From positions 253,306-317,305 of the forward strand of contig LDXR01000002.1 of the NCBI GenBank assembly GCA_001443495.1: a stretch of 64,000 nucleotides of DNA. Reading direction: 5' to 3'. The position numbers and the translations under genes were made by a program. This document shows, in pieces, positions 1,849-55,137 of the stretch. Under the pieces are notes generated by a model. That model worked only from the letters and a program-made list of their open reading frames with translations. It searched no databases and had not been told where the DNA came from. Numbering within the stretch: the stretch's first letter is position 1; every line of letters begins with the position of its first letter. The DNA comes from a candidate division NC10 bacterium CSP1-5 (GTDB lineage: Bacteria; Methylomirabilota; Methylomirabilia; Methylomirabilales; CSP1-5).

Positions 1849-4008
1849 TTACGTCGTGGTCTCACCTCCGTCTCCGTCTTCAGCCACCGGGAGGGTAACG
1901 GTGAACGTGCTGCCTTTCCCCTCACCTTCCGATTCGATGCAGATTCGCCCCCCATGCATCTCGACGAGGCGCCTGGTGATGACAAGACCCAAACCCGTTC
2001 CTTCGCACTGCGCTCCGTGCGACGCCTCGAGCCTCGTGAAGGGCTGGAACAGCTTTGGCTGATCCTCGGGCCGGATCCCTATGCCCGTGTCCGTTACGGC
2101 GATTTCGACGAAATCGCCGTGGTGTTCATGGTGGGTCCCTTTCTGACCCTGAACCGTCCGGGTGGAGACCGTGACGCGCCCGCCGGGCGGCGTGAATTTC
2201 ACCGCGTTGGACAACAGGTTGGTGAGGATCTGCCTGACCCGGGAGGGATCGGCGTACAGGGAGGGAAGCGATTCGCCAGGCACAGACTCGACGACGAGAT
2301 TCTTCTTACCGGCCTGGTCCCTGATCATCGCGACGGCCTCGGCGATGAGTTCGCCGATCCGTACCGGCTTCCGGTGGAGCTCGACCCGCCCCACCTCGAC
2401 CTTGGAGAGGTCGAGCAGATCATCGATGATCTGGAGAAGGTGGTGGCCGGCCTTGTGGATGTTCTGCACGTGCCGCGCCTGCTTCTCCGTCAGGGGGCCA
2501 AAGTGCTGGTCCCGCAAGACCTCGGAAAAACCGATGATGGTGTTCAAGGGGGTCCGAAGTTCGTGGCTCACATTCGCTAGAAAGGTCGACTTATGGCGGG
2601 AGGCGTCCTCGGCCTCCACCAGGGCCTCTTGGAGGCGGGCATTGGCGGCCTCCACTTCCCTGGTCCGCTCTTCCACTGTGCGCTCCAAGCCCTCGGCGTG
2701 GGACTTCACCTGGGTATAGAGGCGGGCGTTCTCGATGGCGGTCGCGGCATGGGCGCCGATGGCCGAGAGGAGGTTGAGGTCGTCTTGGTCGAACGGGCGG
2801 TCGGTCGGGCCGTTCAGCACCTGGATGACTCCAATCATCTTTTCACGGATCTTGAGCGGGACGCAGAGCGCGGACTTGGTGGTGAACCCGGTGTGATAGT
2901 CGACCCCCTGATAGAACCGGCTGTCCTGTCGCACATCCGGGACGATGAGCGAACACCCGTGCTGGAAGACCCAGCCGGCGATTCCCTTTCCCACCTTCAA
3001 GCGCCGGCCCTTGAGCGCCTCCCCGTGCTCGCCCGATCCGATGCGAAAGACCAATTCGTCCCTCTCGTCATCCTTCAGCAAGAGCGAGCTGGCCTCCACA
3101 CCCATCACGGTCTGGATGCGCTCCATGATGAGGCGCAGAAGCTCGTCAACATCCAGGGTCGCCGTGAGGAGCGCGGAGACGTCATTGAGGGCCGCGAGCT
3201 CCCGAATCCGCAGGAACAGCGGAGTGACATCACGGATCACCAGGAGCTGGCCTGTGGCCCATCCATCGCCGAGAAGATTGGTGATGGTGAGTTGGAGCGT
3301 CCGGTCCCGATACGCATAGACGAGCCGCTCCGTGGCCAACCCCTCCTGGCGGGCCAGGGCCTTCAGGGCGAGGAGTAAGGGATCGGTGTCCCGACCATCC
3401 AGGATGGTCGGGAGCGCCACCCCCACCAGGTTCCGCTCCTGCCATTGAAAGAGCGCGGCGCCTGCCGGATTGGCGTAAAGGATGCGATGGGAGGAGTCCA
3501 GGAAGAGGATCCCTTCACCGAGATTTTGGAAGAGGGCATTGAAGTGGGCGGTGTGGGCGAGCAGCTCGGTAACGATCCTGCGGGGCTGGATCTCTCCGAC
3601 ACCCCGGATCTGCTCGGCCCAGACAGGAGAAGCGGTTCCATCCTCGAACGCCCGGAGGATCGGAAATAGGTCCTGAAGGATCGCATCGATGTTGCGCTTG
3701 GCGATGTAGGCGTCGGCCCTGACGTAGCGAAGCCATTGCGCAGACTCAGGGGCCGTCCCGGTGAGCACGATGATCGGGATGGACCGGGATTTGGGGTCCT
3801 CCTTGAGTTGTTGGCAGACCTCGATCCCGTCCACCTTCGGCATGACGAGATCCAGGACGAGGAAGTCGGGCGCCTCTCTGCGGACTTGATCGAGGGCCTC
3901 CATCCCATCGAATGCGGCTAAGACCTGATAGCCCCGCTCTTCGAGGGCTTCGTGCAGGAGCCCAACTAGGAGGCGGTCGTCATCGGCCACCAGAACCTTT
4001 CGCGGCAC
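1849..4008 (-). CDS. Hybrid sensor kinase: receiver-PAS-GAF-histidine kinase
   Basis: 719 residues. The order is receiver domain (about 1-120, acidic patch ADDD, phospho-acceptor Asp53 in VLDLVMP), PAS-like domain (about 145-260), GAF domain (about 280-430), a coiled-coil linker, a HisKA dimerisation domain with His482 in FLANVSHELRTPLN, and a HATPase_c domain with the N-box ILTNLLSNAVKF, DTGIGI and GTGLGL motifs. There is no transmembrane segment, so it is probably a soluble kinase that receives phosphate or protein signals at its N-terminal receiver and small-molecule signals through PAS/GAF. No response regulator gene is adjacent, so its output partner is elsewhere. All catalytic residues appear intact. 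Confidence 0.93.
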   Translation of the reverse strand: MPRKVLVADDDRLLVGLLHEALEERGYQVLAAFDGMEALDQVRREAPDFLVLDLVMPKVDGIEVCQQLKEDPKSRSIPIIVLTGTAPESAQWLRYVRADAYIAKRNIDAILQDLFPILRAFEDGTASPVWAEQIRGVGEIQPRRIVTELLAHTAHFNALFQNLGEGILFLDSSHRILYANPAGAALFQWQERNLVGVALPTILDGRDTDPLLLALKALARQEGLATERLVYAYRDRTLQLTITNLLGDGWATGQLLVIRDVTPLFLRIRELAALNDVSALLTATLDVDELLRLIMERIQTVMGVEASSLLLKDDERDELVFRIGSGEHGEALKGRRLKVGKGIAGWVFQHGCSLIVPDVRQDSRFYQGVDYHTGFTTKSALCVPLKIREKMIGVIQVLNGPTDRPFDQDDLNLLSAIGAHAATAIENARLYTQVKSHAEGLERTVEERTREVEAANARLQEALVEAEDASRHKSTFLANVSHELRTPLNTIIGFSEVLRDQHFGPLTEKQARHVQNIHKAGHHLLQIIDDLLDLSKVEVGRVELHRKPVRIGELIAEAVAMIRDQAGKKNLVVESVPGESLPSLYADPSRVRQILTNLLSNAVKFTPPGGRVTVSTRTVQGQKGTHHEHHGDFVEIAVTDTGIGIRPEDQPKLFQPFTRLEASHGAQCEGTGLGLVITRRLVEMHGGRICIESEGEGKGSTFTVTLPVAEDGDGGETTT

Positions 4009-4199
4009 TACCGCACCCTCCCGGGCGCCAAAGGTCTAGGGCCCCCCGGCGTCGGCAGCCAATGCACTCTTGCGCAAAGAGAGCATAATGGCTGCGTGTA
4101 TGTGGTGTAGTCAGGGATTATTTGCAAGGCGCGTGCCGGGGCGCACGAAGCGGAGGCTGGCCGACGCAGCGCTCGCCCAAGAGCGTGAGAAATGGTATC

Positions 4200-4733
4200 T
4201 TAAGGGCCTCGATCCCGGAGGTAGAGCCGGCGAAGCTCGGCGAAGAACGCGAGCGCCTCCCGGGTGCGGTAATCGGGATAGGTCCAGGGAAGGGGTTGGT
4301 ACGCCCCTTGCTCGTATTTCAGATGAAGATCCCCAAAGATCCCCTGGTCCAGATAGATCCGGTGGGCGTAGTCCTTGGTGCTGGCCAGGACGATCTTCGC
4401 CGGGGTAAGATAGCCTGGGTCGACGTTGATCCGGCGCCGCAGAGTCCTCTTGCCGGCAAGGCTGAACTGCCCCTCGATCTGATTGGTCCGATGCTTGGCC
4501 TCCGGAAGTATATTCTGTGCGATCAGGGCCTCGGCGGCCACGAAGCGCCGATAGAGTCCGGATCCCATTTCCGTCTCGTAATACTCGGTGAAGGAGAAGG
4601 GGAAGACCTCGCTCTTCAGGTCGAGGGGACCGAAGGCTGCACTCAGGGACGATTCGACCGCTGCGAGAAGGCCTTCCGGTGCAAGGATGGCGAAGAAGAG
4701 CTTGGCGTTTCGTGCCCCCGGAACTTCTTTCAC
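4200..4733 (-). CDS. DUF4416 family protein
   Basis: The conserved pattern of DUF4416 is visible: a start around AKLFFAIL, then FPFSFTEYYETEMG, TNQIEG, NVDPGYLTPAKIVLAST, KDYAHRIYL and a C-terminal WTYPDYRT. The open frame reaches 4844, but conserved sequence begins only after residue 38. The GTG at 4733, preceded by a GGGGGATAGGGG purine run, gives about 177 residues, the usual family size. The biochemical function of the family is not known. It is divergent from the amidase operon, with under 150 bases between the starts. Confidence 0.75.
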   Translation of the reverse strand: MKEVPGARNAKLFFAILAPEGLLAAVESSLSAAFGPLDLKSEVFPFSFTEYYETEMGSGLYRRFVAAEALIAQNILPEAKHRTNQIEGQFSLAGKRTLRRRINVDPGYLTPAKIVLASTKDYAHRIYLDQGIFGDLHLKYEQGAYQPLPWTYPDYRTREALAFFAELRRLYLRDRGP

Positions 4734-53283: not shown

Positions 53284-55137
53284 ATGAAGAGCCAGGCCAG
53301 AAAATCGGGTTCCCGCTTCTACGAGCTCTACTGCATCGCCTGCGGCAGACGGGTTCGCGAGGAGGAGTCGACCACCCGCTGCCCGAGCTGCCGAAGCCCC
53401 CTGGACGTTCGGTTCGACTACGACTACATCCACTCCCGGCTCAACCGGTACTCCCTCAGAAATTCCCCCATCAAGGCGATGAAGTATCTCGATTTCTATC
53501 CCATCGAGAACCTGAATCTGGTGGTATCGCTGGATGAAGGGGGGACGCCGCTCTACCGCTGCCGGAGGCTGGGAGAGACAACCGGCTTTTCTCGCCTCTA
53601 CATCAAGAACGAGGGCGCCAATCCGACGGGGGTCTTCAAGGACCGCGGGAGCATGGTGGAGCTCTCGAAGGCCAAGGAGCACGGCGCGAAGGCGATCTGT
53701 GTGGCGTCCACCGGGAACATGGCCGCCTCCGTCGCCGCGTATGCCTCCATCGCTATGTTGCCCTGCTATGTGCTGGTGCCCGAGGGAACCGCCATCGGGA
53801 AGATGGCGCAGGCCTTGAGCTATGGGGCGCGGCTTCTCCAGATCCGGGGGACGTACAATGACGCCTTTCGTCTCACCGAGGAGATGAGTGAGCGGTACCA
53901 TTTCTACCTGGCCGGGGACTACGCCTTTCGCGTCGAAGGACAGAAGTCCCAGGCCTTCGAGATCATCGAGCAGCTTGACTGGCAGGTCCCGGCGGTCGTG
54001 ATTGTTCCCATGGGTTTTGGGACCAACATCGCCGCCCTCTGGAAGGGGTTCAAGGAGTTTTACGACATGGGGCTGACCGACCGCCTCCCTCGCCTGATCG
54101 GGGTTCAGCCCGAAGGCTGCAGCCCCATCGTCGCCGCGTTCAACCAGGGGCAGGAGAAGATTACGCCGGTGGAGCGGCCCGACACCATCTGCTCCGCGGT
54201 GGCGGCGGGGGACCCCCTGGATGGGCCCAAGGCGTTGCGCGCCATCCGGGAGTCGGGGGGGTGTGCGCTCAGCATGAGCGACGGAGAGATCCTCGAAGCC
54301 CAACAGTTGCTGGCCCGGCTCGAATCGATCTTCGTCGAGCCGGCGGGTGCCCTCCCCATCGCCGCTTTGCAGCCCTTGCTCGCGACCGCACGGGTACAGG
54401 CGGACGAAGTGGTCGTCTGTCTTGCTACCGGCAACGGCCTCAAGGACCCCCGGTCGGCGCTCAGGGTCCTCCCGTCGCCGGCAGCCATTGAGCCCTCCAT
54501 TCAGGAGGTGGACAAGTTCCTCAAGCTCAAGCTCTACGAGATCCGGGCCGCCGGGGCCAAGAACGGCGACCGGAACCTCTTTACCGAGGTCCCCTCGAAA
54601 GGGGCGCTGTCCGAGCTGGTCAACACGGAGTTCGGCATCCGCCTCACCCCCGACTACGCCCAGCGGGCCCTGGGCCTCGTGGAGGATTTCGTCAACAAGG
54701 GAAAGCCGGTCACCAAGGCGGATCTCCAGTACATCCTGGAGACCACGCTCAAGCGTGCATCCGGCGAGGGGGTCCTCAAGGTGGAGGACTTCCAGGTCAC
54801 GACGACGCTCCACGGTCAGGCTCAGGCCAAGGTCTGGGTGAGCTTCGATGGGGAGCGGCTCGAATCGAGCGGAGCGGGGGTCGGGCCGGTCGATGCGGTG
54901 ATCAGCGCCCTCAAGGCAGCGGCCAGCAGCCGGGGGCGGATCTTCTTCGAGTTGATCGATTACCAGGTGGCGATCAACGCCCCAGGGACCGATGCCTCGG
55001 TGGAAACGACGCTGGTCCTGAAGGACGCCAAGGGGAACCGGATCGTTGCCACTGGGACCTCTCCCGATATCATCGTGGCCTCAGTCCAGGCCTTCGTGGA
55101 CGGCTACAACCTCCTGTGGGCCCGCCAGCAATCCTAG
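53284..55137 (+). CDS. thrC: Threonine synthase fused to a LeuA-type regulatory domain
   Basis: 617 residues. An N-terminal zinc-ribbon-like segment (YCIACGRRVREEE ... CPSCRSPLDV) is followed by a PLP-dependent threonine synthase: NEGANPTGVFKDRGSMVEL with the Schiff-base lysine, VASTGNMAASVAAYAS and VPMGFGTNIAALWKGF. From about residue 500 the sequence VTTTLHGQAQAKVWVSFDGERLESSGAGVGPVDAVISAL matches the LeuA_dimer regulatory domain of isopropylmalate and citramalate synthases, which binds leucine or isoleucine. Feedback control of threonine synthesis by a branched-chain amino acid is inferred. Residues 430-500 do not match any family I recognise. Confidence 0.9.
   Translation: MKSQARKSGSRFYELYCIACGRRVREEESTTRCPSCRSPLDVRFDYDYIHSRLNRYSLRNSPIKAMKYLDFYPIENLNLVVSLDEGGTPLYRCRRLGETTGFSRLYIKNEGANPTGVFKDRGSMVELSKAKEHGAKAICVASTGNMAASVAAYASIAMLPCYVLVPEGTAIGKMAQALSYGARLLQIRGTYNDAFRLTEEMSERYHFYLAGDYAFRVEGQKSQAFEIIEQLDWQVPAVVIVPMGFGTNIAALWKGFKEFYDMGLTDRLPRLIGVQPEGCSPIVAAFNQGQEKITPVERPDTICSAVAAGDPLDGPKALRAIRESGGCALSMSDGEILEAQQLLARLESIFVEPAGALPIAALQPLLATARVQADEVVVCLATGNGLKDPRSALRVLPSPAAIEPSIQEVDKFLKLKLYEIRAAGAKNGDRNLFTEVPSKGALSELVNTEFGIRLTPDYAQRALGLVEDFVNKGKPVTKADLQYILETTLKRASGEGVLKVEDFQVTTTLHGQAQAKVWVSFDGERLESSGAGVGPVDAVISALKAAASSRGRIFFELIDYQVAINAPGTDASVETTLVLKDAKGNRIVATGTSPDIIVASVQAFVDGYNLLWARQQS

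Follow-up and report, generated by a model that had tools for sequence, protein, structure and literature searches.

The 617-residue protein described here, encoded in a 64,000-nucleotide stretch of a candidate division NC10 genome (the window), joins a zinc ribbon and a threonine-synthase (ThrC)-fold PLP domain to a LeuA-type linker and a LeuA_dimer allosteric domain, and we consider it probable that this fusion is an isoleucine-feedback-inhibited threonine ammonia-lyase (threonine deaminase) evolved from the threonine-synthase fold. We infer the deaminase reaction, the isoleucine effector, inhibition rather than activation and dimerization through the LeuA_dimer domain, the conversion of threonine to 2-oxobutyrate being suggested by the genome context and the active site. 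With somewhat less assurance, we favor the view that the fusion is a third, hitherto undescribed gatekeeper of isoleucine synthesis, which takes the place of IlvA as well as CimA in Methylomirabilis and two other small phyla. "Threonine synthase", the function assigned by the first-pass annotation, is probably wrong. Both domains are already known, and what is new is their combination with a predicted role at the entry to isoleucine; indeed, no published description of a PALP-LeuA_dimer protein was found in a literature search that covered few subscription papers.

Architecture and conservation of the fusion

The features of the fusion gene are collected in Table 1. The catalytic half is recognized by Pfam as PALP (residues 81-383, E 3e-72), retains the FKDRG lysine (PLP lysine K119, 53638-53640) and scores above the curated cut-offs of TIGR00260 (thrC, 248.6 bits, cut-off 167.1) and NF006050 (305.3, cut-off 303). 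The IlvA profile TIGR01127 gives about 101 bits, below its cut-off of 379, and the Pfam search finds no ACT-like domain. Likewise, domain and curated-profile searches find no CimA-type HMGL-like catalytic barrel (TIGR00977 criterion). At the N terminus, the zinc-ribbon cysteines C17, C20, C33 and C36 are invariant across six aligned homologues of families f1 and f3. The first-pass annotation had read about 110 C-terminal residues as a LeuA_dimer domain, an identity which the PF08502 match (91.1 bits, E 6.9e-26, gathering cut-off 24.9) and the fold comparison given below both bear out; its size was underestimated, as the domain spans about 135 residues and follows a three-helix linker of the LeuA type. 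Since the alignment to LeuA profiles starts near residue 439, this linker seems to have been acquired together with the domain.

Table 1. Positions in the window of the fusion gene and its features
Feature	Position	Strand	Basis
Fusion gene, 617 aa (zinc ribbon + ThrC-fold PLP domain + LeuA-type linker + LeuA_dimer)	53284..55137	+	open reading frame of 617 residues, no internal stops
N-terminal zinc ribbon, residues 13-40	53320..53403	+	weak sub-cut-off Pfam zinc-ribbon hits
Threonine-synthase-fold PLP domain, residues 67-399	53482..54480	+	Pfam and curated profiles
Substrate-site changes relative to ThrC: V117 (S59), M146 (T88), G211-D212-Y213-A214 (NSxNP), F245 (N188)	53632..54018	+	
LeuA/CimA-type helical linker, about residues 439-491, three helices	54598..54756	+	LeuA profile alignment, AF2 helices
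LeuA_dimer allosteric domain, residues 476-610	54709..55113	+	PF08502, fold match to LiCMS and MtLeuA
Predicted isoleucine pocket: V536, D537, L557, Y560, I564, V573, P594, D595, I596	54889..55071	+	alignment to LiCMS 3f6g, LeuA, CimA

Whole-protein searches found the fusion in 31 of the 35 genomes of its own order of Methylomirabilota (NC10) and in none of the 60 remaining genomes of the phylum. Twenty-nine of these 31 fusions are full length (the present copy included), one is split across contigs and one is cut by a contig edge. Outside the phylum, four full-length fusions occur in two very small phyla (genomes G167 and G388 for one, G191 and G389 for the other), and a 385-genome sample centered on G191 held no further example. 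Full-length copies from other genomes are 55-95% identical to the present one, and both domains exceed the Pfam cut-offs in the three other-genome fusions tested. The existence of 33 full-length copies in 33 genomes rules out an assembly or frameshift artifact. No ilv gene neighbors the fusion in eight loci, and Rfam returned no T-box, riboswitch or leader upstream of it in seven. One locus of family f5 (L076, genome G019) has a 416-residue ThrC-like gene (1312-2559) directly upstream of the fusion gene (2651-4522).

Catalytic site and effector pocket

The catalytic domains were aligned to the ThrC of T. thermophilus, whose sequence was verified as 1uim and whose residue numbers are followed for ThrC positions; the full-length AF2 model, built from an alignment with only six close homologues, had a catalytic domain of low confidence (pLDDT 46) and was set aside for this purpose. 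All 11 aligned fusions retain K61, S84, T85, N87 and T317, and R160 is retained as well. The same 11 replace S59, T88, N154, S155, N157 and N188. All six residues are shared by the five solved ThrCs, those of B. subtilis and Arabidopsis included, and several of them presumably contact the phosphate of the substrate in the analogue complex of T. thermophilus. These changes turn S59 into V or A, T88 into M and N188 into F, Y, C or A, and the ThrC segment N154-S155-x-N157-P158 is replaced by G-D-Y-(gap)-A. In the phylogenetic tree, the fusions group in a single clade (98/99), to which an unfused relative in genome G250 is sister (99/98), and the whole group is separate from both the canonical ThrC and the IlvA clades. 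This relative (L052, G250:C104:8731-9885) is the closest unfused one of the fusion PLP domain (47% identity) and bears the same M88/GDYAFR signature; its genome also encodes an E. coli-type ThrC and has no IlvA, and L052 may represent the same enzyme in unregulated form.

Other features of the catalytic domain count against a deaminase: as judged from the alignment, the PLP-site residues are ThrC-like rather than IlvA-like, R160 is kept, and the curated profiles still designate a threonine synthase. On the other hand, threonine deaminase activity is reported for the ThrC of T. thermophilus, B. subtilis and Microcystis (PMC12172450), and such reports make ThrC a plausible starting point for a deaminase. 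These precedents and the ThrC-like PLP site would equally suit a bifunctional ThrC/deaminase similar to that of Microcystis, in which isoleucine would act on the deaminase reaction. We regard such an enzyme as unlikely, given that several ThrC-invariant substrate-site positions are changed together and that a dedicated ThrC is present in the genome.

As for the C-terminal region, the AlphaFold model of residues 426-617 (pLDDT 82) displays a repeated three-strand-one-helix pattern and is matched by Foldseek to MtLeuA with leucine (3fig, E 5e-11) and to Leptospira LiCMS with isoleucine (3f6h, TM 0.78 on target, rmsd 3.0). In 13 out of 13 fusions, L451, Y/F454, I458, V468, P493 and D494 (LiCMS numbering, as for the other pocket positions) are identical or nearly identical to isoleucine-bound LiCMS (3f6g), and the departures from LiCMS lie at Y430 (V) and Q495 (I/V). 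The corresponding residues are A458, G468 and T493 in all six LeuA proteins, and CimA has I458 and A468. With I458, V468 and P493 as in LiCMS, where we take these positions to set effector selectivity, the fusion pocket predicts isoleucine as the ligand, one of the two (leucine or isoleucine) first proposed for the domain. A mere cross-hit to LeuA or CimA was rejected, since both fold and pocket are intact. In the LeuA_dimer tree, the fusions, LeuA and CimA make up three separate clades of unresolved branching order, a topology that leaves a simple capture of the domain from the organism's own LeuA unsupported.

Threonine supply and isoleucine entry across genomes

The genome carrying the present copy (2.77 Mb, 99.7% complete) encodes a homoserine dehydrogenase (hom) followed by a canonical ThrC of 351 residues (TIGR00260, 330 bits), and with this ThrC next to hom, the genome does not need the fusion for threonine. 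A search for ilv genes in parts of contigs C1, C2, C3, C9 and C13 yielded an ilvB-ilvH-ilvC cluster on C9, recognized from motifs and sequence rather than by profile search; since these three genes are present, 2-oxobutyrate is the missing input. Indeed, this genome gave no TIGR01127 match for IlvA at 1e-50 and no CimA was found in it; it does have a LeuA, which together with the fusion makes up its entire set of LeuA_dimer carriers. The related genome G024, a single contig of 2,752,854 bases, likewise has neither IlvA nor CimA, with LeuA and the fusion as its sole LeuA_dimer carriers, and it encodes six PALP proteins, namely two CysK, TrpB, ThrC, another ThrC-like protein and the fusion. Four more ThrC-like PLP proteins are encoded in the fusion's own genome (L013, L014, L015 and L016, on contigs C21, C19, C9 and C20); proteins of the L015 type also occur in G024, G167, G191 and G308, near cysteine synthase genes in the first two.

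Across the phylum, CimA is found in none of the 35 members of the order versus 52 of the 60 other members, and ACT-type IlvA in three of 35 versus 44 of 60. Within the phylum, all 31 fusion genomes lack CimA and 28 lack ACT-type IlvA. The fusion and CimA never co-occur there (Fisher p 1.5e-15, a value that ignores shared ancestry and corresponds effectively to one contrast); in general, Fisher p-values overstate independence here, as clade members share ancestry and about three contrasts exist in all. The other contrasts come from the two small phyla. In the first, G167 and G388 combine the fusion with an absence of both CimA and IlvA, and the fusion-free sister G308 has a CimA (841 bits). In the second, neither CimA nor full-length IlvA accompanies the fusion in G191 and G389, and a full-length IlvA-like protein is encoded by their sisters G329 and G390, which lack the fusion. 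Short Ser/Thr-dehydratase-like proteins, which might deaminate threonine, are also present in G191 and G389.

Two sets of exceptions weigh against the deaminase, as do these short proteins and the lack of ilv neighbors noted above. Three genomes of families f3 and f4 (G014, G015 and G018) have the fusion together with ACT-type IlvA; two of them reach no more than 70% completeness and one shows 9% contamination, so that contamination cannot be distinguished from a transitional state. Furthermore, two members of the order that are 93-96% complete (G003 and G017) have neither fusion nor CimA, only a short Ser/Thr-dehydratase-like protein.

The first-pass annotation had placed feedback control on the threonine branch. 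This reading is only partly supported: the sensor is of the branched-chain type, whereas control of threonine synthesis is less likely given the canonical ThrC beside hom and the loss of ThrC-invariant residues. With a separate ThrC, these lost residues and the absence of CimA, and usually of IlvA, control is likelier to fall on the use of threonine, through its deamination towards isoleucine, than on its synthesis. The same facts bear on a genuine second threonine synthase, the last step of threonine synthesis then being throttled by isoleucine. That reading draws on the curated-profile scores, the zinc-ribbon ThrC-like architecture and the retained R160, and we hold it to be improbable, as canonical hom-thrC genes already exist, the fusion lacks residues that never vary among the solved ThrCs, and 28 fusion genomes would be left with no recognized source of 2-oxobutyrate. 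Another substrate, such as serine or a further hydroxy or phosphorylated amino acid, handled in a side pathway under branched-chain control and without connection to 2-oxobutyrate, would accord with the diversity of ThrC-fold paralogues (cysteate synthase and others), four of which accompany the fusion in its own genome, and is again improbable, since the isoleucine-type pocket, together with the lack of CimA in those genomes, points to the entry step of isoleucine.

Proposed role and comparison with known systems

For the isoleucine-inhibited deaminase that we favor, the following scheme can be proposed. The separate canonical ThrC of the hom-thrC route would supply threonine to the fusion, whose PLP domain would dehydrate and deaminate it to 2-oxobutyrate, itself converted to isoleucine through IlvBH and IlvC. 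Isoleucine would then bind at the dimer interface of the C-terminal LeuA_dimer and switch off the PLP domain, a loop equal to that closed by IlvA with its ACT-like domain and by CimA with LeuA_dimer. The LeuA_dimer itself may have been captured from a source of the citramalate/isopropylmalate-synthase type.

If this scheme is true, the fusion represents a third type of wiring for the entry to isoleucine and fills the isoleucine pathway gap of the methane-oxidizing NC10 bacterium Methylomirabilis. It would also mean that an unrelated PLP enzyme can receive the LeuA_dimer sensor with the metabolic logic preserved, a natural case of allosteric domain transplantation useful to enzyme engineering, and that annotations as "threonine synthase" can conceal a threonine-consuming enzyme.

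With ThrC (T. thermophilus 1uim, B. subtilis 6cgq), the fusion shares the fold, the PLP lysine and the cofactor residues, and its identity to the canonical ThrC of its own genome is about 43%; unlike ThrC, it has lost six ThrC-invariant substrate-site residues and gained a zinc ribbon and an allosteric domain. Microcystis ThrC is, as predicted for the fusion, a ThrC-family protein that deaminates threonine, with reported in vitro sensitivity to isoleucine, but it keeps its ThrC activity, and the available part of the source describes no LeuA_dimer fusion for it (PMC12172450). CimA, including Leptospira LiCMS, has in common with the fusion the LeuA-type linker, the LeuA_dimer, the isoleucine-type pocket residues and, as predicted, a metabolic role at the committed entry to isoleucine. 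They differ in that the fusion has no HMGL-like TIM barrel and its LeuA_dimer forms a clade beside, not inside, the sampled CimA and LeuA clades. Finally, IlvA (TIGR01127, TIGR01124; PALP plus ACT-like domain) catalyzes the reaction that is predicted for the fusion, at the predicted pathway position and under the predicted isoleucine feedback. In both, a regulatory domain lies C-terminal to a catalytic domain of PLP fold-type II; the regulatory domain of the fusion is a LeuA_dimer instead of an ACT-like domain, and its catalytic domain stems, according to the tree, from the ThrC branch rather than the IlvA branch.
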